A stretch of DNA of 64,000 bases from Photobacterium angustum (lineage in GTDB: Bacteria; Pseudomonadota; Gammaproteobacteria; Enterobacterales; Vibrionaceae): assembly GCF_002954615.1 (NCBI RefSeq), contig NZ_MSCJ01000003.1:310001-374000 (forward strand), in the 5' to 3' direction. The notes under the pieces were generated by a model. It saw only the letters and a list, made by a program, of their open reading frames with translations, was not told the DNA's origin and ran no database searches. Within the stretch, counting starts at the first letter, position 1. Every line of letters starts with the position of its first letter. Shown one piece after another: positions 5,331-32,868 of the stretch. Both the position numbers and the translations under genes were made by a program.

Positions 5331-5421
5331 GGAGAGATGGCTGAGTGGTTGAAAGCACCGGTCTTGAAAACCGGCATACGTTTATAGCGTATCTAGGGTT
5401 CAAATCCCTATCTCTCCGCCA
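5331..5421 (+). tRNA. tRNA-Ser(TGA)
   Basis: Class II tRNA with a long variable arm, anticodon TGA in the loop CTTGAAA, acceptor stem GGAGAGA/TCTCTCC and encoded CCA end. Confidence 0.97.
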
Positions 5422-5467
5422 TATTTAATTGTTAAGCTATGGCTTGATGATAAAACGAAATTTTAGT

Positions 5468-5543
<76 letters not shown>

Positions 5544-5552
5544 TTAAATTTC

Positions 5553-5637
5553 GGTGGGGTTCCCGAGTGGCCAAAGGGAGCAGATTGTAAATCTGCCGGC
5601 ACTGCCTTCGAAGGTTCGAATCCTTCCCCCACCACCA
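5553..5637 (+). tRNA. tRNA-Tyr(GTA)
   Basis: Class II tRNA with acceptor GGTGGGG/CCCCACC, anticodon GTA, long variable arm and CCA end. Confidence 0.97.
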
Positions 5638-5656
5638 TAATTTGCAGAGATGCTTA

Positions 5657-5731
<75 letters not shown>

Positions 5732-5737
5732 AACAAT

Positions 5738-5813
5738 TCCTCCTTAGTTCAGTTGGTAGAACGGCGGACTGTTAATCCGTATGTCGCTGGTTCAAGTCCA
5801 GCAGGAGGAGCCA
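5738..5813 (+). tRNA. tRNA-Asn(GTT)
   Basis: Acceptor TCCTCCT/AGGAGGA, anticodon GTT and encoded CCA. Last gene of the operon. A variant copy lies at 32914-32989. Confidence 0.97.
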
Positions 5814-7061: not shown

Positions 7062-8381
7062 ATGAAATCTAATTTTAAAAGTTTTTACAAACCTCAGAGT
7101 GAAGAACTAACAGATCTTTGGAATAACGCGATATTTGTATTTGATACAAACATATTAACTAACTTATACCGATATCAATCAAAAACAACTGAAGATTTCT
7201 TAAAGGTGTTAAGTCAAATCCAAGATAGAATATGGATCCCTCATCACGTAGCTCTTGAATATCAAAGAAACAGGTTAGGTGTAATTGAAGAACAGCATAA
7301 TAAATTTGCTGAGACAAAATCTACCATCAACAATATGGTCGATGAGCTTCAAAAGAAATTAGATAATCTGCAGCTAAAAACTAGACATAGCTATATAGAT
7401 CCAGATCCATTAATAAATGGAATTGAAAATGTAAAAGATGAATTTTTTAAAAAGTTAGATGAGTTAGAGAAAAATAGTATCCAAATAAGCTCTCAAGATA
7501 AAATTCGTGAAAAATTAGATAATTTATTTGAAAGTAAAGTTGGTAAAGCCCCTACGCAAAATGAAATTGATGAACAAGAGAAAGATGGTGAAAATCGGTT
7601 TAGCTTAAAAATACCACCTGGCTATGAAGATCAAAAGAAAGATGGCTCATTTCTATTTAATGGAGTGAGATACCAAAATAAATTTGGCGACCTTTTAATT
7701 TGGAATCAGATTATAGAACACTCAAATGCTTCTGATATTAAGCACTTAATTTTTGTGACTGATGATACAAAGAAAGACTGGTGGGAAATAGTTAAAGGTA
7801 AAAAAATCGGCTTAAGAAATGAGTTGATTGATGAGATATACAATAAGTCAAAAGTTGAATTAGTTAATGTTTATCAGGCGCATACGTTCTTGAAATATGC
7901 ATCTGAACATCTAAAAACAAAAACATCAGTTAATTCAATTAAAGATGTGGAATTGGTCTCTGAATTCAAAATAGGCCATGAATTGTCTAATCAACCTAGA
8001 AAAAATAGAGAATTATTCAAAAACATTACTCTGCCGGAAGATTACAAAATATTTATATCAAAGTTATTAAGTGGTAAGGAAATATCTAAAAGTCATAAAG
8101 ACTATTTAGTTTCATTGGATGATATCAATCCGTCTGATAGTTATAAAAGAAATATATTAGAATTTTTAGATAATAATGAACAGCCTGAAAATAATAACGT
8201 TAATTTAATTTCAATTGATGATAATGAATTTTCGGAAGTTTATAAAAGAAATTTATTAAAGTCTATCATTGCAAATGATAGAAAGTTGTCTGAAATTTAT
8301 AAAAGTAATTTAGATTTATTGAGTGATAGTGAGCTTTCTGAAATAATTAGAAATAAGGTAAAGGATTCTTTCAATAAATAA
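7062..8381 (+). CDS. PIN-like domain protein (PIN_8/DUF4935 type), probable ribonuclease
   Basis: The N-terminal half matches large PIN-like proteins: FVFDTNILTNLYRY with acidic D28, HHVALEYQRNR with E66, then after a helical insertion FGDLLIW (D210) and HLIFVTDDTKKDWW (D234/D235). These acidic residues would hold the metal of a PIN nuclease. The middle (about 75-175) looks coiled-coil. The C-terminal region carries three copies of an S-(D/E)-x-YKxN-(I/L)-L motif (SDSYKRNIL, SEVYKRNLL, SEIYKSNLD). Relatives are often single-gene residents of defence islands, consistent with this location. RNA cleavage in phage defence is inferred. AT content is higher than in the genes just upstream, suggesting transfer. 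Confidence 0.8.
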   Translation: MKSNFKSFYKPQSEELTDLWNNAIFVFDTNILTNLYRYQSKTTEDFLKVLSQIQDRIWIPHHVALEYQRNRLGVIEEQHNKFAETKSTINNMVDELQKKLDNLQLKTRHSYIDPDPLINGIENVKDEFFKKLDELEKNSIQISSQDKIREKLDNLFESKVGKAPTQNEIDEQEKDGENRFSLKIPPGYEDQKKDGSFLFNGVRYQNKFGDLLIWNQIIEHSNASDIKHLIFVTDDTKKDWWEIVKGKKIGLRNELIDEIYNKSKVELVNVYQAHTFLKYASEHLKTKTSVNSIKDVELVSEFKIGHELSNQPRKNRELFKNITLPEDYKIFISKLLSGKEISKSHKDYLVSLDDINPSDSYKRNILEFLDNNEQPENNNVNLISIDDNEFSEVYKRNLLKSIIANDRKLSEIYKSNLDLLSDSELSEIIRNKVKDSFNK

Positions 8382-8432: not shown

Positions 8433-8614
8433 TTGTCATTTGCGGTAACTCCGAGGATAAAGCCCGCCAGCGAGACGCGCCATTCATTTCAATCCACGCC
8501 TTTACACCATCACTTTAAGGCCAAGCATCGCCCATACCAAGGCAACGTCATGGTGTTGTCGAGGCGGTTTTCCATTCATTCTGCCGCTGGCTAGCTTAGG
8601 AACTTGTTTCCACC
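8433..8614. repeat. dispersed GC-rich repeat, copy A
   Basis: It begins near ACTCCGAGGATAAAGC and ends near CTGCCGCTGGCTAGCTTAGG. A second copy lies at 10300-10504 and carries about 24 extra internal bases. It is much more GC-rich than its surroundings and I see no coding potential. Confidence 0.8.
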
Positions 8615-8737
8615 TTTTTTATTATCTAATTGGATTAATATGATTGTTGCTAGAGGTGTAATCTGTTCTATCGTATAACCCATTAAAATTGAAATAATTA
8701 AAAAGATTAAAAGTAAAACCAATACTATTTTTTTCAT
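8591..8737 (-). CDS. putative 48-aa single-TM peptide
   Basis: A short frame with a good AGGAAAG ribosome binding site and ATG. It encodes a Lys-Lys start followed by a hydrophobic segment (residues 4-20, IVLVLLLIFLIISILMG), then a polar tail. The last codons run into dispersed repeat copy A. It resembles the very small inner-membrane peptides common in mobile DNA, including type I toxins, but no antitoxin RNA is visible. No assigned function. Confidence 0.4.
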   Translation of the reverse strand: MKKIVLVLLLIFLIISILMGYTIEQITPLATIILIQLDNKKGGNKFLS

Positions 8738-9346
8738 ATGCTTTCCTGAAATTTAGACATAAAAATACCGCCTCAATGGACGGTGTTTTGTGATTCATTT
8801 GGTTGTTCTATACCAGTGGTTTATTAAATAGAGTGTTATTAAAATTAGAGTGGGGGAAGTGGCGTTTTTATCTTTCCATCACTGGGGGATATTAAATAGT
8901 CTACCGTGGTAGACCATGTAACTATCTCTTCTATAGTGTCCATTAAATAGAGTGTTGCTGATTCTATGATCGGTTTGCACTGTACTTTCCCTTCTTTAAA
9001 GGGAAGAGTATATGAAAAACTAAACTCATTATTATGTAGTTTTCTTTAATATGTTACTTAACTTACTTAACTTACTTAAGTTGCATAACTTACGTAACCT
9101 TTGTCGGGTATTCACAACAAATAGTAATGAACGATGTTTTATTCGGTTTTAATGAATGGTTATTACTGGTTTTTTTATGTAACTTTTGCATTAGAAAAAC
9201 TAATTAAAAATAGTATTATTTCTCACTTTTAAAAGCCGATTAAACTCCTATAATGCCCCACATCGAAACGCGACCCACGCCTTATAAATACTGTGTTTAG
9301 GCAAGGTTGTACATCATATAAAACTTGCTTTATTAAGGAATTCACA
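8738..9346. other. intergenic region with palindrome and iteron-like repeats
   Basis: No gene is supportable here. It holds the palindrome GTCTACC-GT-GGTAGAC (8899-8914), two TTAAATAGAGTGTT motifs, and five tandem 9-bp units at 9054-9098. The last 100 bases are the conserved leader of the 25-aa gene. Confidence 0.6.
9054..9098. repeat. five tandem 9-bp iteron-like units
   Basis: TTACTTAAC, TTACTTAAC, TTACTTAAG, TTGCATAAC and TTACGTAAC follow one another with no gaps. Such iterons usually bind a dedicated protein (replication initiator, recombinase or regulator), but none can be named here. Confidence 0.75.
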
Positions 9347-9424
9347 ATGTCACGTATCATTAACAAAGTTGTTAGCTTATACACTCCAGTTTTCGCTTCT
9401 ATGTACAAAGCGCAAATCAAATAA
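9347..9424 (+). CDS. 25-aa basic/hydrophobic peptide, conserved duplicated gene
   Basis: A tiny gene with AAGGAA upstream of its ATG, encoding a peptide beginning MSRIINKVVSLYTPVF and ending YKAQIK. It has its own strong terminator. A related copy, including about 90 bp of leader (shared CCTTATAAATACTGTGTTTA), lies at 48837 but carries a one-base shift after the first 15 codons. Conservation of leader, start and terminator argues for a real transcription unit. Whether the peptide or the RNA is functional is unknown. The amphipathic composition would fit membrane association. Confidence 0.55.
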   Translation: MSRIINKVVSLYTPVFASMYKAQIK

Positions 9425-9441
9425 GCGTTTAAAGAATTTAA

Positions 9442-9475
9442 AAAAGGGCGTTGAAGGTAACTTCAACGCCCTTTT
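9442..9475 (+). terminator. terminator of the 25-aa gene
   Basis: AAAGGGCGTTGAAG, loop GTAA, CTTCAACGCCCTTT: a 14-bp perfect stem followed by T residues. Confidence 0.93.
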
Positions 9476-9511
9476 GCTATTTGGTTAATCAATAGCCATA
9501 TTGAATAGTGT

Positions 9512-10189
9512 TTATTGTTGTCGTTCTTCGTTAGCGAATATAGTTAAAAAATATTTCAACTCATATAGCTTTTCTTTTTTATTTGGTGTGAGTTTTATTA
9601 GTATATAAATAAAAATAAATAAACAAATTCCAGCAATGCCAATAAGTGCGATTATTTTAAGATCAAGACTTTTCATGGTTGCAACTAAAATTGATATTGA
9701 AAATGTTACTAATACACCAATTACTTTCTCTATCCCTAGACCGCTATTTTCATTGATGAGTATTCTAGTGTTAAGTATTTCTAATATTCCTTCAATATGA
9801 GAACTATTTATTTGATTTAAATTTAATGTTCTACGAAATTTTAGGTATCTAGCTTTTTGATCTTTATAATTTTCCGGTGGTGCTTGAGATAACTCATATT
9901 CTGAATATTCTTTTTCAGTGTAAATGCTCTGAGCTTTAATAAATAAGAAAATACTAATACACTCAGAAAAAACAGTGAAAAAGAGGTATGTATAGTAATC
10001 ATGCATATCTTCTTTGTAAGCTGAGTAAATCGCTAAAAATATAAATAGTACGAAAAGAACTATAGATAATAAAAGTGATAATTTAAATTTAAGCCCAATA
10101 GTTTTTAAGCTTTCTCTGAAGATAGCTACTCTTGTACATTCTTTAGTGTAAGCATTAAAGCATACATCCCATTTGTTCGTATTTTTCAA
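9512..10189 (-). CDS. four-TM membrane protein of unknown function
   Basis: The 225-aa protein has a short cytosolic N-terminus, a TM pair (about 36-56 and 66-88), a polar 65-residue segment with RYLKFRRTLNLNQ, then a second TM pair (about 155-172 and 176-198) and a charged tail. This layout recalls small membrane effectors of defence islands such as the SLATT group, but I see no decisive motif and do not assign the family. It stands alone between the 25-aa gene and the GC-rich repeat, with strongly AT-rich codon use. An effector role is speculation based on neighbours (PIN-like gene, reverse transcriptase). Confidence 0.7.
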   Translation of the reverse strand: MKNTNKWDVCFNAYTKECTRVAIFRESLKTIGLKFKLSLLLSIVLFVLFIFLAIYSAYKEDMHDYYTYLFFTVFSECISIFLFIKAQSIYTEKEYSEYELSQAPPENYKDQKARYLKFRRTLNLNQINSSHIEGILEILNTRILINENSGLGIEKVIGVLVTFSISILVATMKSLDLKIIALIGIAGICLFIFIYILIKLTPNKKEKLYELKYFLTIFANEERQQ

Positions 10190-10299
10190 TATTTATAACC
10201 TCAAATATACTTATTAACAGCAAGCAATAATACGCTGCTGTTTTTTTTTATCAGCTAGTTAAGATAAAACTCATCGATTACATTTTATTTATGATGGAT

Positions 10300-10504
10300 T
10301 TGTCACTTGCTGATACTCCGAGGATAAGGCTCGCCAGCGAAACGCGACATTCATTTCAAACCACGCCCTTACACCATCACGTTAAAACGCCTTCGTGTGA
10401 AAAGCCGCAATGCAAGCATCGCCACACCAAGGCAACGTCATGTTGTTGTCGGGGCGGTTTTCCATTCATTCTGCCGCTGGCTAATTTAGGAGCTTGCTTC
10501 CAAC
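10300..10504. repeat. dispersed GC-rich repeat, copy B
   Basis: Related to 8433-8614 across its full length (ACTCCGAGGATAAGGC to CTGCCGCTGGCTAATTTAGG), with extra sequence around 10383-10410 containing AAAACGCCTTCGTGTG. Confidence 0.8.
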
Positions 10505-11096
10505 CCCTATCCCCAATCTTGGGGAAGTTTACGCTTCGCGCAAACAAGAGCCCGTCGCACCGTAATGGCTCACGTTCTTAGGTTTAACGGCATAGGTTTG
10601 TAGTTCGCCATTACCGTGCGTTTGAGTATCGTGGGTGCTGGCGCTTCATAATTACGGCTACTTGGTGCCTTTTGCTGGCACAAAGCTGCCTTAACATAAT
10701 GGTTTTTATGCGAAATGTTACGTGCCTAACCCCAGCAAGCTGGCGGGCACTGGGCACAACGCATAAAACAGCAATTATGTTAAATTTTCCGCGCTCAGTT
10801 TGGCATCGGTGTTAGCTTTAGCCACAAGCCAACATCAAAAGCGGCCTGTAAGTGTGGTTACATTTGACCTCTTATTGGCGTGGTTAGGCTGTCATGTTGG
10901 CAGTTCCTGCCAATTACCTCGCGCTTCGCACATCGGCTTCCACAACCTCCCCCGCCCACCCAATGTAGCCCGCTCGGTACTAAAAATGGTGTCTACGTCT
11001 TTGGCATATCCGAATTTGGTTACAGGTTTTATTTACTGTATTTCTATGGCGGTCTACGTGGGCTGGTCGTTGCGGTAAGGCAAGATCCAAAGCAAT
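10505..11096. other. GC-rich non-coding segment
   Basis: It continues from repeat copy B to the terminator at 11097. Short reading frames on the plus strand have poor starts and odd Cys/Pro/Ser-rich composition, so I do not call them genes. The segment has higher GC than its neighbours and contains a large nested palindrome (10691-10783). A structured RNA or a recombination site fits better than a protein gene. Confidence 0.5.
10691..10783. repeat. 93-bp nested imperfect palindrome
   Basis: Outer arms TTAACATAAT / ATTATGTTAA and TTTTATGCG / CGCATAAAA enclose GTGCC/GGCAC and a CCAGC-AA-GCTGG tip. The right end GTTAAAT fits the integron core GTTRRRY, but the left end CCTTAAC misses the first base of RYYYAAC. 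It is a candidate attC-like site or RNA hairpin. Confidence 0.6.
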
Positions 11097-11123
11097 AAAA
11101 AAGCCTGCTGGCGCAGGCTTTTA
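11097..11123. terminator. bidirectional terminator downstream of XRE gene
   Basis: AAAAAGCCTGC, loop TGGC, GCAGGCTTTT. It lies next to the stop of the minus-strand XRE gene. A near-copy lies at 11532-11555 on the gene's other side. Confidence 0.88.
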
Positions 11124-11128
11124 TCGTT

Positions 11129-11434
11129 TTAATGCGGTATCGCGTCAGCAATGTTCGGTACTTTTTTTAAGTACCGTTGTTGAAGTTCTTCAAATAACTC
11201 CATGGTATCAAAATTGTCTAACGAGGGACGTTCGCCAGTAAAATACGAAATATTTTTATTAAAAAGTGTCGATAGCGTAATCAGTGTATCTAGTCGTGGT
11301 AGTGTTTTTCCGTACTCTAAATCTAAGTAGGTTTGTCTTGCTATTTTTAAGTTTTTAGCGACATCGACTTTCGTCATGCCTTGCTCTTCACGGACTTGCT
11401 TTAGCAAAAAGTGAAATGCGTTAGGGGTGTTCAT
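11129..11434 (-). CDS. XRE-family helix-turn-helix regulator
   Basis: A 101-aa DNA-binding protein with a Cro/cI-type HTH over residues 10-65: LLKQVREEQGMTKVDVAKNL, then KIARQTYLDLEYGKTLPRLDTL as the recognition region. The short C-terminal part (FDTMELFEELQQRYL) probably dimerises. It is closely related along its length to the protein at 55547-55861, so two paralogs exist in this window. Both sit next to a hairpin terminator and have no obvious partner gene. It probably represses its own promoter or nearby island genes; the target is unknown. Confidence 0.88.
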   Translation of the reverse strand: MNTPNAFHFLLKQVREEQGMTKVDVAKNLKIARQTYLDLEYGKTLPRLDTLITLSTLFNKNISYFTGERPSLDNFDTMELFEELQQRYLKKVPNIADAIPH

Positions 11435-11531
11435 TATTTTAGTTCTTCTATGTTTTTATAGGTCGGACCAAGAGATAGTATCGCTAAACGGGAAGTTGGG
11501 AAGAAACTTTATAGAGGTATATAGATGATAT

Positions 11532-11573: not shown

Positions 11574-12884
11574 TCATTTCAATATTTCATCTTGAAGACG
11601 ATTCCATAGTGGCTTTAACTGCTTTTTTATACTCTTTGAATCCATTATCTTGGCGGCTTTATAGCCGTAAGAAAGGAAGTTTCGTTTACCACGGTATGAG
11701 TATAATTTGTGTAGTTTGCGTTTATACAATTGATCTTGTTCTTGTTCACCTTTGCTATGTCTTATTCGGTTCTCTTTATCCATCGTCTTTTTTGCTAATT
11801 TAACGCCACCTTTCATTTTTTCTGAATATCGTGCAAGTGCAGTTGAACGTAAATAAATAGAATGTCCGTCAAAAAGGAAACCTAAGTATTGTAGTGGTTT
11901 TTGCTTTCCAAATTCATCAAATGAACACAATTTCCCATGTGTTAGCTCAAAGTTTCTTATTTCTGTTTTATCTTTGTTTATATTAACTTTTAGTGCTTGT
12001 ATTTTACTGTTTGCTAATGCTTCAACTGTGTTTTTATATTCTGAAGGGACAATAAAAAGCATATCATCACAATACCTAAAATATTTACCGCCAACGCTAT
12101 TGACATAATTTAGCATGTCTCGATCGAAAGAAATCATGTAAATGTTTGATAGCAGTGCACTAATTGGTGAACCTTGCGGGATTCCTTTATTACCTTGAGG
12201 GTTCGGTTCTATTAATCCAGCCTTACGAACGTTTGTTCTAAACTCTGATGGTGAACAGATCCTGTTCCTTCCATTTGCTTTAGGGTTGTATTGTGAAATT
12301 CCAAATGTGTTAAATACCTTCTCGCGATCAACTGTTGTGAATTTAGTTAAAGACTTGAAAACATTGAAATGATCTTTTGGTAAGCGTGTCACTTCTAACA
12401 ACTTGCACCATTCATCTTTTAGTATCTCGTGGTCAAGAGTGTCAAAAAATTTAGAAAAATCTAAAGCAATAGCGGAACAAGTTTCCATCTTACGAATATC
12501 GTTAAAAGCATCGTTAGCAAAGTGAATATTACTTTTACCATCAATTTTTCTAAAAGCTAAAACAGATGTATTCAACCCTAGTAAAGATAGTTTTTTTTCA
12601 TATAGTTCTGATAGTTGATGAGCATAATACGCATAAATATGACTATCAATATGTGATGAATAGGCAACACCACGAGGTTTTGGTTTTCGGTAAAGCTTCC
12701 CTGTAGTTAGATCACGATCTAGTTTTGTTAACTGAAAATTATATGAAATAAAAGGATAAAATGCATGAGTAGCGACAATAAATGAATTAGTGGCTATTTT
12801 AGTAGCTTTAGTTGCTGAAACTGAAATATCAAAATGAAGATAGTTTCGCTTTGTATACCAAATTGGCTCAGGTGTGTTTTTCAT
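11574..12884 (-). CDS. antiviral reverse transcriptase, DRT2 (UG2)-like
   Basis: A 436-aa stand-alone reverse transcriptase. RT motifs in order: KPKPRGVAYSSHIDSHIYAYY (68-87, trimmed here to RGVAYSSHID as the key part), catalytic Asp in ALDFSKFFDTL (D142), GIPQGSPISALLSN (234-247), active-site YCDD (271-274), then LQYLGFLFDG. It has no maturase, endonuclease or integrase domain, so it is not a group II intron RT. Length, YCDD box and a structured non-coding region directly upstream fit defence-associated RT type 2, in which the RT copies an upstream ncRNA by rolling-circle synthesis into a repetitive gene (neo) during phage infection. The class is inferred from motifs and layout; other UG classes remain possible. 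Confidence 0.8.
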   Translation of the reverse strand: MKNTPEPIWYTKRNYLHFDISVSATKATKIATNSFIVATHAFYPFISYNFQLTKLDRDLTTGKLYRKPKPRGVAYSSHIDSHIYAYYAHQLSELYEKKLSLLGLNTSVLAFRKIDGKSNIHFANDAFNDIRKMETCSAIALDFSKFFDTLDHEILKDEWCKLLEVTRLPKDHFNVFKSLTKFTTVDREKVFNTFGISQYNPKANGRNRICSPSEFRTNVRKAGLIEPNPQGNKGIPQGSPISALLSNIYMISFDRDMLNYVNSVGGKYFRYCDDMLFIVPSEYKNTVEALANSKIQALKVNINKDKTEIRNFELTHGKLCSFDEFGKQKPLQYLGFLFDGHSIYLRSTALARYSEKMKGGVKLAKKTMDKENRIRHSKGEQEQDQLYKRKLHKLYSYRGKRNFLSYGYKAAKIMDSKSIKKQLKPLWNRLQDEILK

Positions 12885-12889
12885 AGGAA

Positions 12890-13155
12890 AGAGTAAATTC
12901 TAGCAAAACCCAAAAGAAGTAGAACTTGCGGCCTTTCTTTATATTCTTTTGGGCTTTAACTAACTGGCCTAACCAATCATCTGGCCTCGAAAGGCACTCA
13001 CCGCGATCTATTAGAAATGATTTATAATGTAATATTCGATGGAGACTATACGATGATAATCTTACACCTGATGACAATGTTGATTCCTTGGCGTACCAGA
13101 GAACGATGCATTGACAATCTGTCACAACCCTTTACACCTATTGTGTAAAGCAAAG
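12890..13155 (-). ncRNA. candidate DRT2 template ncRNA upstream of the RT
   Basis: The 340-nt gap before the RT is highly structured on the RT strand: CTTTACAC/GTGTAAAG (13131-13151), GCCT-TTCG-AGGC, and near the RT start CCCAAAAGAA/TTCTTTTGGG with an inner stem. A promoter-like TTGATT-17-TAAGAT precedes it. One frame is free of stops from just after TAA at 13132-13134 to the TGA ending at 12868, about 87 codons, overlapping the RT start. DRT2 ncRNAs are known to sit here and to encode a never-ending frame when concatenated. Ends are approximate. Confidence 0.5.
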
Positions 13156-13173
13156 ATATCTTATTGATATCTT
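13150..13173. promoter_or_regulatory. palindrome upstream of DRT2 ncRNA
   Basis: AAAGATATC, loop AATAA, GATATCTTT, next to the CTTTACAC/GTGTAAAG hairpin. It could be an operator or part of the ncRNA promoter. Confidence 0.5.
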
Positions 13174-13230
13174 TATATGCAATCAAGTATTGCTTTAAGT
13201 TTTAATGTAAGTTTTTATGTCTAAATATCT

Positions 13231-14175
13231 CTACTTTTTTGCATGGGTTACAGAATAAACATCATCTATAAGGTAATTGTATTTTTCAGGTAATAAGGCT
13301 AACTCTCCCCACCCTAAGTTCTCAAAACATAAACCAATTCCATTTTCAGTTACTTTGCCATAAACCAGCGCATACCTTCCCGTAGATTTATCACCAATCC
13401 CATGTTCGTGTTGTAATTTATGTTTAGTTTTAATACAGAAGTCTTTTACTGTTGGTGCACATTCGATATAAGTCATTCGAATATTATTGTCACCTGGTGT
13501 GTTTCCATGATGTACAGAGTTTTTAAGTTTCACGAAATACAGCTTAGGTTTTTTTACTATATCTGTAACTAGGCTTGCATCATTAAGCAATGATGTTAGT
13601 GCGATAGCATGTTGATTTCCCGGTAAGAAATAGTAACGGTAATAATTTTTATCAAAGTTATGACAAATACCTCGTAATGAGGTGACTGTACTTGGTACTT
13701 TAAATGTTTCCCCGTTATGTATGCTTAATGGGACCTCAGCATCAAGTCCGTCTTCATCTTCTATTTGTGCATCATCAAAAGGTTTTGATGATGGTGTTGC
13801 TTGTTCGGGTTTTTCTTTCATAAATGAAGAAACAATAACTAGCTCCTCATGGTCTATAGCTTGGGTAACAGCTTCTGCACTTGAATATTTTTTACCTTCA
13901 GCTTTCTTTGACCTTAATGCGCAAGGAACACTTTTATATTTAGGTATATGTCTAAAGTGGGCTTCTTTGTTAGAGGTTGTATGTTCTTTATGTTGTGGAA
14001 CACGGCTAAGGTTTGTAAAGCACACTGGGCAAAATAGTGTGTTTTTCATTTCGTCTTCATATTCTGACGGTTGTATCCTCTGTGCTCTTTTCAATAAGGT
14101 TGCTCTTAAACCGTCTTCGTATTTCCAGTTTTGAAGATAGAGCGCATGAGCTATTCTGCGTTGTAAGGGTTCCAT
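13231..14175 (-). CDS. unknown protein with CoiA-like CPVC...HFRH zinc motif
   Basis: About 314 aa, not recognised as a whole. The N-terminal third has LFCPVCFTNLSRVP and, about 25 residues on, EAHFRHIPKYKS, a Cys-Cys...His-His arrangement as in the zinc-binding region of CoiA-like competence proteins and some nucleases. An acidic linker follows (about 125-150), then a separate globular C-terminal region (YYRYYFLPGN to NLGWGELALLPEKYNY). No signal or membrane segment. The start at the internal ATG is preferred to GTG three codons upstream, weakly. It is transcribed towards and lies just upstream of the DRT2 unit, so it may be an accessory of that system, or an independent cargo gene. Confidence 0.65.
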   Translation of the reverse strand: MEPLQRRIAHALYLQNWKYEDGLRATLLKRAQRIQPSEYEDEMKNTLFCPVCFTNLSRVPQHKEHTTSNKEAHFRHIPKYKSVPCALRSKKAEGKKYSSAEAVTQAIDHEELVIVSSFMKEKPEQATPSSKPFDDAQIEDEDGLDAEVPLSIHNGETFKVPSTVTSLRGICHNFDKNYYRYYFLPGNQHAIALTSLLNDASLVTDIVKKPKLYFVKLKNSVHHGNTPGDNNIRMTYIECAPTVKDFCIKTKHKLQHEHGIGDKSTGRYALVYGKVTENGIGLCFENLGWGELALLPEKYNYLIDDVYSVTHAKK

Positions 14176-14345
14176 AAATACCACTTTAAATGTCTAATAA
14201 TATATATATTAACTATTTACTTTATTTTTAAGTGAAACCTGTATCACATATTTTTGCTATTATTTTTGTTTTTTATGTATACCCTAACGAAACCGCTTCC
14301 CACAGCCCCTCATCCCTTACCGCTTCATTTGTGAAACCATCTATA

Positions 14346-14387
14346 CTAAACTAATTTTAGAAACCAACTTAAATTAAACCAGTTTAG
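14346..14387. promoter_or_regulatory. inverted repeat before the serine recombinase: candidate operator or res site
   Basis: CTAAACT (14346) and AGTTTAG (14381) face each other 28 bp apart, with further AT-rich symmetry, immediately before the recombinase ATG. Serine recombinases often bind such sites next to their own gene. Confidence 0.4.
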
Positions 14388-14395
14388 GGAAAACC

Positions 14396-15001
14396 ATGCT
14401 GATCCGTGCTTACCTTCGTGCTTCAACCACCGAACAAGATGCCCAACGGGCAAAAGAAGAACTCAAAGCCTTTGGCGCCAAATTTGAAAGTCGTATTGCT
14501 GGCTACTACATCGAGAACCAATCTGGTACCAAGTTAGAGCGGCCAGAACTCAACAAGCTGATAGATGACAGCGAAGCCGGTGATGTGTTGCTGATTGAAA
14601 AGATGGATCGCCTTACTCGTTTACCTTGGCTTGAATGGAAAACCTTAAAAGCCCGCATCATGGAAAAAGGGTTGGTGATTGTGGTGGTAGATCAGCCAAT
14701 GACGCATGCGGTGTTCAGCGCGGGTGAGCAAAACAGTATTACCTTGGCCTTAACCGAGTTCATGTTGGATTTAGGCGCCGCGATGGCCCGTGATGATTAC
14801 GAAACTCGACATAAACGCCAAGCGCAAGGCATTGCGAAAGCAAAAGCAGAAGGTAAGTATCGTGGGCGCCGTGTGAATGAGTCACTGCATCAAGATATTC
14901 GGGATCAGTTAAAACTTGGGCGGAGTTATTCAGAAATACAGCAGAAGTTAGGCTGTAGCAGGGCGACAATAGCGAGGGTGGTGAAAGAGGGGGAGTTTTA
15001 G
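14396..15001 (+). CDS. serine site-specific recombinase (resolvase/invertase family)
   Basis: A 201-aa small serine recombinase. The catalytic domain begins LIRAYLRASTTEQDA with nucleophile S10. LLIEKMDRLTRLPWLEW matches the conserved active-site Arg segment. A long helix (about 105-145) and KAKAEGKYRGRRVNESL lead to a C-terminal helix-turn-helix (GRSYSEIQQKLGCSRATIARV). Length and layout fit resolvases and invertases, not large serine integrases. It would resolve cointegrates or invert or excise a segment, acting on paired sites in DNA. No transposase is next to it, so it probably belongs to the island or a former plasmid. Confidence 0.9.
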   Translation: MLIRAYLRASTTEQDAQRAKEELKAFGAKFESRIAGYYIENQSGTKLERPELNKLIDDSEAGDVLLIEKMDRLTRLPWLEWKTLKARIMEKGLVIVVVDQPMTHAVFSAGEQNSITLALTEFMLDLGAAMARDDYETRHKRQAQGIAKAKAEGKYRGRRVNESLHQDIRDQLKLGRSYSEIQQKLGCSRATIARVVKEGEF

Positions 15002-15107
15002 TGTGTTGGTAGCAATGTAGAGGACGAATTGCTTTTACTGTGATTTGTTAAGCCTTTAACAAATAATAAATGCAGTATTTTAGCCACGAGTGATGCGGAA
15101 ATGATGC

Positions 15108-16479: not shown

Positions 16480-16685
16480 TCTAATCGTATTTGGTCGCCC
16501 ATTGAGGCGGTTTTTTTGTCAAACAGGGATCGTATATTTTGGTATTGTGAGATAGGTGAAATGATCCCGTATTATTTTGAAAGTTCGATGTCACCATAAC
16601 AGGAGTGCCATACTGGATAGGCGTCTTATTTGAAGTGCTACGTTATAGAACGCTTTTGAATAAATACTGGTAGTGGTAAAAATCA

Positions 16686-17966
16686 CTAAACACACTTCAC
16701 CACCACAATGTCTTTAATGTCGGTGTAGTAGTTCTCTAGCTCTAACATTTCTATTTCTCCCTGCCGTTCGTGGTAGCTGCGTTGCTGGCATGCAAAACCG
16801 ATCACGCCTTTACCAAAGCGATCGCTTAATTGGTCGAGGGTGGTGTTTAAGGTGTCTTTGTTATCAAAGCGGTTAAATAACTCGAACTGTTTTACTTCGG
16901 CATCAATCAGGCTTGGGGCACCTACGCCCACTTTGTATATGGGTTGCTTGGTAAGGTTGTCGGGGATCAAATCATCGAATAAGGCGCGCAATTGTTGCAG
17001 GGCAAAACTGGTATCGGTTAGGCCGTTTTCGAGTGTCAGTTCACCACGGCGATAAAATGGTGGGCAACGGTCGTATTTTGAGGTGCTGACAAATACGGAA
17101 AGGGTCTTCATCTCGCTTTTTTGGTCGCGTATTTTTCGCATCACTTCGGCGCAGTGGTGAGCTAATTCGGCAAAAAGGTCGTCTCGGTGATGCAGGCGAT
17201 CACGGTAAGAAGCGGTAGACCATATCTGTTTTTTCTTTTCTCGCTCAACGGAAATGTCTAAACAGGCGATGCCATTAAGCTCTGAAATTACGTTAGCGAC
17301 GTTGATGGAATAACGTTTGTGATAGGTTTTGGTGTCGCACTGTTTTAGTTGGTAGGCGGTTAAAATGCCTTCTTGTGTCAGGTGTTTATTCAGTTGCCTG
17401 CCAATGTTCCAAAGTTTACCTACGGGCATTTGTTTTAAAACCGTGTCGGTTTCTTTCTCGCTTATTAATACACATTGTCCCTGGTAAGGTTGGCAGTTCT
17501 TCGCTGCCCACGAGGCGACTTTGGCCAAGGTTAGGGTTTTGCCTACACCAGCGCCTGTCGGTACACCGGTTTCTTTGTAAATGGCTTTGCGTAAGGCTTG
17601 TACGTGCTCATTCAGATCGACGTTGATTTGGTACAGGTGACTCACATCGTAAAACACTTCATCTACGCTATAGCGCATAGAGGGGGCACCTTGTATGTGC
17701 TTTTCAAGGGCTGTCATAAAGCGATCTGAATGGTGAGAAAAGGTGTTGAAGTTGGCTTTATACACAATGCCTTTGTGTACCCGCAAGCGGTCTATTTCTT
17801 CCCATATTGGGGTGAATTTTGAAATACCGATGTTTGTGCAAGCACGGTTAGCGGCAATGGAAATCCCTTGGCCTGCTGTTACTAATAACGGGGTATTTCT
17901 TAGGGCGGGCTTGTAGGTAATGCAAGATTCGGCGTAAAAACGGGTGCCATCAAGTAAGCAAATCAT
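16686..17966 (-). CDS. umuC: UmuC-like Y-family DNA polymerase, copy 1
   Basis: Catalytic subunit of an error-prone translesion polymerase. It opens CLLDGTRFYAES with metal ligand D6 in the position of the usual LVDxNSFYAS, and has YSVDEVFYDVS with D102/E103 for the second metal site. GAGVGKTLTLAKVASWAAK is the helix-hairpin region. The C-terminal little-finger and UmuC tail regions are present; 426 aa is the normal length. It is a divergent family member (RYSVDEVF instead of YSIDEAF). It overlaps the umuD-like stop by 4 nt, so the two are co-translated, and the operon has a LexA box. The protein is identical to copy 2. Confidence 0.93.
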   Translation of the reverse strand: MICLLDGTRFYAESCITYKPALRNTPLLVTAGQGISIAANRACTNIGISKFTPIWEEIDRLRVHKGIVYKANFNTFSHHSDRFMTALEKHIQGAPSMRYSVDEVFYDVSHLYQINVDLNEHVQALRKAIYKETGVPTGAGVGKTLTLAKVASWAAKNCQPYQGQCVLISEKETDTVLKQMPVGKLWNIGRQLNKHLTQEGILTAYQLKQCDTKTYHKRYSINVANVISELNGIACLDISVEREKKKQIWSTASYRDRLHHRDDLFAELAHHCAEVMRKIRDQKSEMKTLSVFVSTSKYDRCPPFYRRGELTLENGLTDTSFALQQLRALFDDLIPDNLTKQPIYKVGVGAPSLIDAEVKQFELFNRFDNKDTLNTTLDQLSDRFGKGVIGFACQQRSYHERQGEIEMLELENYYTDIKDIVVVKCV

Positions 17967-18670
17967 AAGGTAACAGGGCGGTGTAATCGTAGGCTGTAAC
18001 GCACTACGCCGTGTAAGCGGGTGTAGTCGTCTTGGTTTATTTTTTGTGGCTTAAAGCTGGGGTTATCTGAATACAGGGTTCTGCTGTGTAAGTTCACGCG
18101 CTTTACAACAAGATCGTTGTTTAATGAAAGTACGATAACGTCTTCGTTCTCAGGGTTGAGGTGGCGCTCTAATACCAGTATGTCGTGGTCCCAAATGTAC
18201 GGCAGCATGGAAAGCCCAGCTGCACGGCACAAGATGGTGGAGTGCTCTTGGGTGATCACCAGTTGGTGTAGGTCGAGTTCGGTTAAGTCATGGTGCCATG
18301 GTAATAACGGCGGTTGCCTGAAGTGATGGATGGAAAGAGTGATCACGCCTATTACGTGTAAGTCGTCCCACTCTTTGCCTGATACGGCAATGTGTTGGCA
18401 TAGCAGGCTCCAACGTGCGATGTGGTTGTCGCCGTGTTGCTCAAATACAACAAGATCGCTGCTTAGGGGCTGTAAGGCACTGTCTATGAGTAGCCAATCC
18501 CCTTTGGCGATCCCTAGCTTTTTGTAGGTGCTATCGGCGCTCATTATCCGCATAGATGAATGGCTGTGTACAAACATGGTTTGTAGATTTAGCGATTTTT
18601 TCCGAAAGCGAATAGTGGGGTTTTCAAAGCCGGTGATCCCCGCTTGTACGTAAGTGTTAAGTGTAATCAT
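17963..18670 (-). CDS. UmuD-like protein with two fused S24 domains, copy 1
   Basis: At 235 aa this is far longer than a normal UmuD (about 140). Residues 1-115 form one UmuD/LexA-like S24 domain: GFENPTIRF near a possible cleavage site, then MSADSTYKKLGIAKGDWLLID, keeping Ser47 but with Ala85 where the catalytic Lys should be (HIARW for VKR). Residues 128-235 form a second, canonical one: AAGLSMLPYIWDHDILVLE with Ser154 and LVVKRV with Lys190. A single chain may thus mimic the UmuD dimer, with one active and one degenerate half. It is SOS-controlled through the LexA box upstream. It differs from copy 2 only at residue 70 (S here, N there). Confidence 0.85.
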   Translation of the reverse strand: MITLNTYVQAGITGFENPTIRFRKKSLNLQTMFVHSHSSMRIMSADSTYKKLGIAKGDWLLIDSALQPLSSDLVVFEQHGDNHIARWSLLCQHIAVSGKEWDDLHVIGVITLSIHHFRQPPLLPWHHDLTELDLHQLVITQEHSTILCRAAGLSMLPYIWDHDILVLERHLNPENEDVIVLSLNNDLVVKRVNLHSRTLYSDNPSFKPQKINQDDYTRLHGVVRYSLRLHRPVTL

Positions 18671-18681
18671 GGCTAAAAATA

Positions 18682-18697
18682 CTGTATATATATACAG
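18682..18697. promoter_or_regulatory. LexA box of umuDC copy 1
   Basis: CTGTATATATATACAG, a perfect CTGT-N8-ACAG SOS box, about 12 bp upstream of the umuD-like start. Confidence 0.93.
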
Positions 18698-19015
18698 TTT
18701 ATTTTAGAGGTGTTTTGGGTGAGATTAGATTTTTTAGGTTAAAAATCTATTGATTGTTCTGTTATTAGTGTTTTTTATGTGTAAAAAGTACACATAAATT
18801 GGTGACCAAAACTGTGGGTATCACCTTCCTTCCAAAGTCTAATGTTCTCACAACTTTGAATGAGCATATCGAACATTAAATACTTCGTTATATTTTTGAT
18901 GCAGCCAGTAACAAGCTGAGAATTTGTACCGTCACTTATACTTGTGATCTATGTAACATTGATGCGCTAAGAGTATAAATGATGAAATGAATTTGAGTGG
19001 TGAGACTTTTAAACC

Positions 19016-30563: not shown

Positions 30564-30565
30564 CA

Positions 30566-31846
30566 CTAAACACACTTCACCACCACAATGTCTTTAATGT
30601 CGGTGTAGTAGTTCTCTAGCTCTAACATTTCTATTTCTCCCTGCCGTTCGTGGTAGCTGCGTTGCTGGCATGCAAAACCGATCACGCCTTTACCAAAGCG
30701 ATCGCTTAATTGGTCGAGGGTGGTGTTTAAGGTGTCTTTGTTATCAAAGCGGTTAAATAACTCGAACTGTTTTACTTCGGCATCAATCAGGCTTGGGGCA
30801 CCTACGCCCACTTTGTATATGGGTTGCTTGGTAAGGTTGTCGGGGATCAAATCATCGAATAAGGCGCGCAATTGTTGCAGGGCAAAACTGGTATCGGTTA
30901 GGCCGTTTTCGAGTGTCAGTTCACCACGGCGATAAAATGGTGGGCAACGGTCGTATTTTGAGGTGCTGACAAATACGGAAAGGGTCTTCATCTCGCTTTT
31001 TTGGTCGCGTATTTTTCGCATCACTTCGGCGCAGTGGTGAGCTAATTCGGCAAAAAGGTCGTCTCGGTGATGCAGGCGATCACGGTAAGAAGCGGTAGAC
31101 CATATCTGTTTTTTCTTTTCTCGCTCAACGGAAATGTCTAAACAGGCGATGCCATTAAGCTCTGAAATTACGTTAGCGACGTTGATGGAATAACGTTTGT
31201 GATAGGTTTTGGTGTCGCACTGTTTTAGTTGGTAGGCGGTTAAAATGCCTTCTTGTGTCAGGTGTTTATTCAGTTGCCTGCCAATGTTCCAAAGTTTACC
31301 TACGGGCATTTGTTTTAAAACCGTGTCGGTTTCTTTCTCGCTTATTAATACACATTGTCCCTGGTAAGGTTGGCAGTTCTTCGCTGCCCACGAGGCGACT
31401 TTGGCCAAGGTTAGGGTTTTGCCTACACCAGCGCCTGTCGGTACACCGGTTTCTTTGTAAATGGCTTTGCGTAAGGCTTGTACGTGCTCATTCAGATCGA
31501 CGTTGATTTGGTACAGGTGACTCACATCGTAAAACACTTCATCTACGCTATAGCGCATAGAGGGGGCACCTTGTATGTGCTTTTCAAGGGCTGTCATAAA
31601 GCGATCTGAATGGTGAGAAAAGGTGTTGAAGTTGGCTTTATACACAATGCCTTTGTGTACCCGCAAGCGGTCTATTTCTTCCCATATTGGGGTGAATTTT
31701 GAAATACCGATGTTTGTGCAAGCACGGTTAGCGGCAATGGAAATCCCTTGGCCTGCTGTTACTAATAACGGGGTATTTCTTAGGGCGGGCTTGTAGGTAA
31801 TGCAAGATTCGGCGTAAAAACGGGTGCCATCAAGTAAGCAAATCAT
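30566..31846 (-). CDS. umuC: UmuC-like Y-family DNA polymerase, copy 2
   Basis: Encodes the same 426-aa protein as copy 1 at 16686-17966, with D6 and D102/E103 intact, so both copies should be functional translesion polymerases. It overlaps the umuD-like gene by 4 nt. Identity at the DNA level points to recent duplication or ongoing gene conversion between the two cassettes. The flanks differ completely on the 3' side, so the duplicated unit ends right after the stop. Confidence 0.93.
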   Translation of the reverse strand: MICLLDGTRFYAESCITYKPALRNTPLLVTAGQGISIAANRACTNIGISKFTPIWEEIDRLRVHKGIVYKANFNTFSHHSDRFMTALEKHIQGAPSMRYSVDEVFYDVSHLYQINVDLNEHVQALRKAIYKETGVPTGAGVGKTLTLAKVASWAAKNCQPYQGQCVLISEKETDTVLKQMPVGKLWNIGRQLNKHLTQEGILTAYQLKQCDTKTYHKRYSINVANVISELNGIACLDISVEREKKKQIWSTASYRDRLHHRDDLFAELAHHCAEVMRKIRDQKSEMKTLSVFVSTSKYDRCPPFYRRGELTLENGLTDTSFALQQLRALFDDLIPDNLTKQPIYKVGVGAPSLIDAEVKQFELFNRFDNKDTLNTTLDQLSDRFGKGVIGFACQQRSYHERQGEIEMLELENYYTDIKDIVVVKCV

Positions 31847-32550
31847 AAGGTAACAGGGCGGTGTAATCGTAGGCTGTAACGCACTACGCCGTGTAAGCGG
31901 GTGTAGTCGTCTTGGTTTATTTTTTGTGGCTTAAAGCTGGGGTTATCTGAATACAGGGTTCTGCTGTGTAAGTTCACGCGCTTTACAACAAGATCGTTGT
32001 TTAATGAAAGTACGATAACGTCTTCGTTCTCAGGGTTGAGGTGGCGCTCTAATACCAGTATGTCGTGGTCCCAAATGTACGGCAGCATGGAAAGCCCAGC
32101 TGCACGGCACAAGATGGTGGAGTGCTCTTGGGTGATCACCAGTTGGTGTAGGTCGAGTTCGGTTAAGTCATGGTGCCATGGTAATAACGGCGGTTGCCTG
32201 AAGTGATGGATGGAAAGAGTGATCACGCCTATTACGTGTAAGTCGTCCCACTCTTTGCCTGATACGGCAATGTGTTGGCATAGCAGGCTCCAACGTGCGA
32301 TGTGGTTGTCGCCGTGTTGCTCAAATACAACAAGATCACTGTTTAGGGGCTGTAAGGCACTGTCTATGAGTAGCCAATCGCCTTTGGCGATCCCTAGCTT
32401 TTTGTAGGTGCTATCGGCGCTCATTATCCGCATAGATGAATGGCTGTGTACAAACATGGTTTGTAGATTTAGCGATTTTTTCCGAAAGCGAATAGTGGGG
32501 TTTTCAAAGCCGGTGATCCCCGCCTGTACGTAGGTGTTAAGTGTAATCAT
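31843..32550 (-). CDS. UmuD-like protein with two fused S24 domains, copy 2
   Basis: Same double-domain protein as copy 1 except Asn for Ser at residue 70 in the degenerate first half. The first half keeps Ser47 but lacks the catalytic Lys. The second half has Ser154 and Lys190. Conservation of this layout in both copies shows that it is not an assembly artefact of one locus. It is the first gene of an SOS operon with umuC. Confidence 0.85.
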   Translation of the reverse strand: MITLNTYVQAGITGFENPTIRFRKKSLNLQTMFVHSHSSMRIMSADSTYKKLGIAKGDWLLIDSALQPLNSDLVVFEQHGDNHIARWSLLCQHIAVSGKEWDDLHVIGVITLSIHHFRQPPLLPWHHDLTELDLHQLVITQEHSTILCRAAGLSMLPYIWDHDILVLERHLNPENEDVIVLSLNNDLVVKRVNLHSRTLYSDNPSFKPQKINQDDYTRLHGVVRYSLRLHRPVTL

Positions 32551-32561
32551 GGTTAAAAATA

Positions 32562-32577
32562 CTGTATATGTGTACAG
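32562..32577. promoter_or_regulatory. LexA box of umuDC copy 2
   Basis: CTGTATATGTGTACAG keeps CTGT-N8-ACAG; the centre differs from copy 1 by two bases. Confidence 0.92.
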
Positions 32578-32868
32578 TTATTTTAGGGGTGTTTTTGGGG
32601 GGGAGCAAGGTGCTAAAAAAGTATTTGGTTATGGATGAGATTAGATTTTTTAGGTTAAAAATCTATTGATTGTTATGTTATTAGTGTTTTTTATGTGTAA
32701 AAAGCACACATAAAGTGGTGACCAAAATGCGACTATAAGTGTTCTAATAACTTAAAAATAGTATAAACATTATACAAATTTGATGTTTATAACTTTATGA
32801 AATTAAATGTATTAATTTTTAATGGTCTATTTTTTTGTAATTAAATTACGGGTGGGTTTAAGTCTTCA

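Follow-up and report, generated by a model that had tools for sequence, protein, structure and literature searches.

A DRT2 locus of Photobacterium angustum with a predicted antisense neo gene and AUA in place of its second ACA motif

Results

The window, a 64,000-nucleotide stretch of Photobacterium angustum DNA, carries on its minus strand a reverse transcriptase (RT) gene at 11574..12884, with a predicted noncoding RNA (ncRNA) of about 250 nt upstream at 12901..13150 of the same strand. As the initial annotation had described, the RT is 436 aa long with D142, GIPQGSPIS, and YCDD intact, and its freedom from intron or integrase domains is borne out by RVT_1 being the sole Pfam domain. The proposed membership in DRT2 (UG2) was evaluated by profile scores, in place of a UG1–UG28 tree, and the best matches were DRT2 throughout: PADLOC Drt2 at 660 bits (next UG family, 78 bits), NCBIfam Drt2 at 566 bits (cut-off 390), and, by sequence comparison with solved structures, DRT2 chains (9c0i and relatives) at 462 bits over residues 5-435. 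NCBIfam gave no support for a group II intron RT (maturase model, 70 bits, under the cut-off of 300) or a retron RT (best retron model, 50 bits, under the cut-off of 235), and no Rfam intron reached its gathering score in the window. Several RT relatives, among the best 120 of 2997, already carry the name Drt2 at source, so the RT in itself is no news; Morganella and Shewanella relatives, known from their proteins, were also among those matches. The description of the system as marine applies loosely, as the nearest relatives come from Photobacterium and Vibrio but the clade also has a Proteus member.

The locus is flanked by an HTH gene (11129-11434) and a serine recombinase gene (14396-15001), both of which have copies elsewhere in the genome, on contig C4 (94.0% and 92.6%), with other cargo between them. 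The flank copies span 10284-11503 and 14249-15002 in the window and 8523-9742 and 5409-6163 in L184; the C4 cargo was named by eye as RidA-like, hydrolase-like, and Crp-like genes. Photobacterium aquimaris shares window positions 11574-14986 at 87% (DNA), while the other five relatives compared have only the RT and ncRNA in common with the window by DNA. The HTH and serine recombinase flanks suggest a cassette with changing cargo. A 317-aa upstream ORF was considered as a second component of the system and rejected, being found with the RT, by DNA comparison, in one of six relatives (P. aquimaris) and belonging to no family that we found. Elsewhere in the window, a umuD/umuC-like pair (235 + 426 aa) occurs twice in the same orientation, at 16684-18811 and 30564-32727; the copies are 97.6% identical over 2165 aligned bases, and part of the pair is also present on contig C4 (96.9%). 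A 439-aa PIN_8 domain protein is encoded at 7062-8381, with a tRNA cluster nearby at 5331-5813.

The ends of the predicted ncRNA were placed by analogy with the Klebsiella pneumoniae ncRNA, that is, 28 nt ahead of the template and at a 3′-terminal GCUA. The 3′ scaffold of the RNA matches Rfam RT-12 (RF03016) at 12900..13013 (minus strand) with 66.4 bits, above the gathering score of 44.2, which answers the suggested covariance check for a DRT2 RNA upstream of the RT on its own strand. This region contains a scaffold hairpin at 12984-12995 and a tower hairpin at 12909-12953. The 5′ handle hairpin (13130..13150, minus strand) is supported by kept two-sided changes and a weak match to Rfam RT-6 that covers it (13096-13152; 22.4 bits, under the gathering score of 46.7). 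All three stems named in the initial annotation were located on the minus strand, with CTTTACAC/GTGTAAAG within 13150-13130 (the handle region), GCCTTTCGAGGC at 12995-12984, and CCCAAAAGAA/TTCTTTTGGG within 12953-12909. That the upstream RNA is structured is thus upheld by the RT-12 match but not by energy alone, as the folding energy of the 252-nt RNA is ordinary (z −1.35; equalled by 20 of 200 shuffles). Two-sided changes were kept in 15 of 66 predicted pairs (7 sequences, no shuffled control) and fit the handle and tower. The RT-12 model begins with UAACA where the window has UAAUA, and the handle and template are outside the model; our paper search found no literature link of RT-12 to UG2.

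Promoter geometry and flanking triplets place a predicted template of 111 nt (37 codons) at 13012..13122 on the minus strand. Its first three bases are motif 1 (ACA-1, 13120..13122, minus strand), and its last base, 13012, immediately precedes motif 2 (13009..13011, minus strand), where AUA stands in the position expected for ACA-2. The RT-12 match begins at 13013, within the final two template bases. From its position relative to K. pneumoniae, the primer-binding site is predicted to be AUUUC (13014..13018, minus strand; primer GAAAT). On the plus strand, a −35 TTGACA (13111..13116) and a −10 TATAAT (13023..13028) are brought into place only in a concatemer of the template, with the −10 located 17 bp past the −35 across the repeat junction. 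The resulting antisense junction promoter has 12 of 12 sigma-70 consensus bases, and in its native, unrepeated form the 64-kb window has no perfect TTGACA-N17-TATAAT on either strand. A predicted ribosome-binding site, GGAG (13041..13044, plus strand), and a predicted neo start, ATG (13053..13055, plus strand), follow; from the ATG, the frame reads through to 13122 and on into the next repeat at 13012 with no stop. Antisense frame 2 of the repeated 111-nt unit is therefore endless and reads EMIYNVIFDGDYTMIILHLMTMLIPWRTRERCIDNLL per repeat.

The best template candidate in the 400 nt upstream scored 16 (points for the promoter and the triplets, plus a bonus if the frame is open), a value reached by 0 of 200 dinucleotide shuffles. 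When templates were shuffled with their ends fixed, 6.2% were open, 0.18% had TTGACA in place, and 0.10% had TATAAT in place. Dinucleotide models of the template were open in 6-8% of cases. Frame openness alone is weak evidence, because half of random 111-mers drawn from the window (9148/18254) are open in some frame.

The initial annotation had assigned neo to the sense strand, based on a stop-free run of about 87 codons that overlaps the RT start. This run is present (85 aa when started from GTG, 12868..13125, minus strand) and stays open over the concatemer as well. Its 82-codon portion within the 347-nt upstream region is uncommon by chance, being reached by 38 of 2000 shuffles. Conservation in close relatives was not found, as two of eight clade systems, the window and Moritella, have an open sense frame across the repeat, and the frame in Moritella is a different one. 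The sense strand is closed in the other six, including P. aquimaris, and in 38 of 52 systems overall. Moreover, the main texts of PMC12039810 and PMC11100668 describe Neo as coded antisense to the DRT2 ncRNA, in a single frame that never closes, with a promoter created where the cDNA repeats join. We accordingly reject the sense frame as the encoded product, a reading to which we assign almost no weight. The anticipation of a novel, divergent neo was correct insofar as the Neo repeat differs from that of Escherichia coli N921, but the coding strand was wrong. The repeat unit, at 111 nt, was rightly expected to be a multiple of three.

For a broader view, we sampled 68 loci whose RTs were 40% or more identical across 370 or more aligned residues; 55 of them were distinct systems. 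More distant RTs and a partial locus (L005) were left out, and five loci from the phylum and class Drt2 draws (L186-L190) are outside all counts. Templates were called frame-blind, using promoter geometry and triplet similarity only. A template was called in 52 of the 55 systems, with a single best candidate in 49. The template length was divisible by three in 50 of these 52, and it is these 50 that share one open antisense frame. An open sense strand over the repeat was seen in 14 of the 52. Since the geometry was taken from the window and the published K. pneumoniae system, the promoter cannot count as independent evidence locus by locus; length and frame can. Within this sample of 55 systems, the frame-blind calls lend support to the published rule that neo is antisense.

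The two exceptions to divisibility by three were L083, where three candidates tied, and L053. Applying the frame bonus to L083 selects a 129-nt ACA/ACA template. L053, a DRT2 system on a Nitratidesulfovibrio plasmid, has a perfect junction promoter and a 145-nt repeat bounded by ACTG/ACTG; from its ATG, 97 codons would be read across three frames to a stop (counted by eye). Three systems lacked a frame-blind call (L073, L054, and L084). Inspected by hand, L084 has a 120-nt ACA/ACA template with frame 2 open and a poor −10. L073, from Marinomonas fungiae, retains the RT and a recognizable scaffold, but by eye the stretch from handle to scaffold appears to have lost the template.

Within the clade of the window, template indels are +12, +3, and −3 nt, and those in the handle and scaffold are 1-2 nt. 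No synonymous excess was detected in the antisense frame, with 15 synonymous versus 65 non-synonymous changes among the 111-nt relatives (8 overlapping pairs summed), compared with 5-18 versus 65-74 in the other five frames. Protein-level selection on Neo is hence visible only as stop avoidance, in-frame indels, and length. The missing synonymous excess would also suit an effector consisting of the cDNA or promoter array rather than the Neo protein in the ACA/AUA lineage, but 50 of 52 systems have a repeat length divisible by three and share the open frame, which makes this quite improbable.

The nearest named relative is P. aquimaris (RT identity, 91%); another genome of the same genus (G042) is identical to it in RT and upstream region over the stretches compared. 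Counting the window's own genome, RF03016 was detected in 10 of 329 family, 6 of 394 order, and 2 of 369 class genomes, and Drt2 (E 1e-60) in three of the 398 genomes drawn from the phylum and three of the 369 from the class. The AUA scaffold pattern matched viral contigs five times; no match was accompanied by a Drt2 RT (E 1e-10), and by eye the contexts appeared to be unlike DRT2 RNA.

Motif 2 is AUA in the window, while RT-12 and published DRT2 systems have ACA. The two identical ACA motifs expected around the template are consequently absent from the window, and they are also missing in Moritella (AUA/AUA) and in L091 (AUU/AUU), a DRT2 system with an open 111-nt repeat from a Sulfurovum metagenome-assembled genome. 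We treat ACA/ACA identity as a common DRT2 feature that is not decisive for membership. Motifs were tallied for 53 systems (the 52 called frame-blind plus L084, with L083 corrected by hand), giving 44 fully pairing triplet pairs (Moritella included), 7 ACA/AUA, and 2 ACA/GCA. A rapid RT tree, built without bootstrapping, unites Moritella with the ACA/AUA systems in a single group of eight (SH-aLRT 99); the seven ACA/AUA systems alone have a support of 63. The two ACA/GCA systems represent two changes on the tree, and a single origin is still compatible with its well-supported branches; the long branch that leads to one of the two, L123, is marked as uncertain. We considered whether the AUA reflects a decaying, inactive DRT2 with a drifted motif 2, as the departure from ACA might imply. 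Given that the RT is intact, the junction promoter is perfect, and seven distinct systems of one clade share the AUA, we regard such decay as very improbable.

Discussion

Taken together, the locus is very probably an abortive-infection system of the DRT2 (UG2) kind. The antisense neo predicted for it is complete, and we propose its mechanism by analogy with K. pneumoniae. Upon phage infection, the RT would copy 13122-13012 over and over, returning by a jump from motif 1 to motif 2 in each round. The cDNA would then be made double-stranded and transcribed, and the repetitive Neo would arrest the cell. By this analogy, the ncRNA is predicted to encode, on its antisense strand, a self-toxic repeat protein, such that DRT2 writes a gene absent from the genome. 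At the jump in the window, the nascent cDNA 3′ end ATCTGT may re-anneal to AUAGAU through a G-U wobble and extra pairs, giving a predicted concatemer, antisense to the ncRNA, that reads ...CTGT up to the junction and TAGAAATG after it.

How the RT finds the correct base at each jump and passes over further ACA triplets within the template was left to be determined in the main text of PMC12039810, and the variant motifs bear on this question. In all nine unequal triplet pairs, which come from about three lineages, the mismatch with the nascent cDNA is a G-U or G-T wobble. The fourth position is paired in all nine, compared with 7 of the 44 equal pairs (Fisher p 2.6e-6, a value that takes no account of relatedness among the systems); counting distinct hexamer pairs, a crude handling of relatedness, gives 4/4 versus 7/23 (p 0.019). 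Six-base pairing between ACAGAU and AUAGAU is found in six of the seven ACA/AUA systems, and neither ACAGA nor AUAGA occurs elsewhere in the window's template besides motif 1. These patterns suggest base pairing as the determinant of the template jump.

Alternatively, the handle and pseudoknot scaffold could stall and reposition the RT and thereby set the register, with AUA being tolerated drift. Stalling at tightly bound RNA elements is raised as a possibility in the main text of PMC12039810, and the observed mismatches, while wobble-compatible, are transitions as well. Nonetheless, fourth-position pairing accompanies the wobble triplets, and disrupting the ACA homology reportedly abolishes DRT2 defense (main text of PMC11100668); we therefore consider a scaffold-set register somewhat doubtful. 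A second alternative is that the RT jumps early, re-annealing over GAU and copying AUA, which would give a CTA rather than a CTG junction. GAU is common to both motifs in six of the seven ACA/AUA systems, and the Neo repeat is unchanged when motif 2 is copied for motif 1 in all nine mismatched systems. Conversely, the Proteus member shares only G after the triplet, and the K. pneumoniae jump has been located at ACA (main text of PMC11100668), leaving an early jump unlikely.

A more novel reading is that the DRT2 jump follows a minimal pairing rule rather than ACA/ACA identity. The ACA/AUA lineage, which includes the AUA/AUA Moritella, and the two ACA/GCA systems would swap a Watson–Crick pair for a wobble plus a fourth pair, with the Neo junction remaining silent (Leu-Leu) whichever motif is copied. 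We hold this tentatively, with a probability a little short of even (roughly 0.45). The ACA/AUA variant was not found in the main-text passages on DRT2 that were consulted (PMC12039810, PMC11100668, and PMC12596737), and it may be known. With a complete predicted neo, the ACA/AUA lineage offers ready-made variants to tell pairing from scaffold as the register-setter.

Among characterized systems, K. pneumoniae DRT2 (PDB 9c0i; main texts of PMC12039810 and PMC11100668) is the closest point of reference, with an RT similar over residues 5-435 of that in the window. By published description, the two have in common the handle, template, scaffold, 17-bp junction promoter, and endless antisense frame. 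They differ in repeat length (111 nt in the window versus 120 nt), motif pair (ACA/AUA versus ACA/ACA), and predicted primer site (AUUUC versus AUAUC). E. coli N921 DRT2 (L064) displays the same anatomy, with an RT 53% identical to the window's and matching 9c0i at 572 bits, but has a 117-nt repeat, ACA/ACA motifs, and an unpaired position 4. The P. aquimaris system (L066) has the 111-nt repeat and ACA/AUA motifs of the window and differs from it in its closed sense frame.
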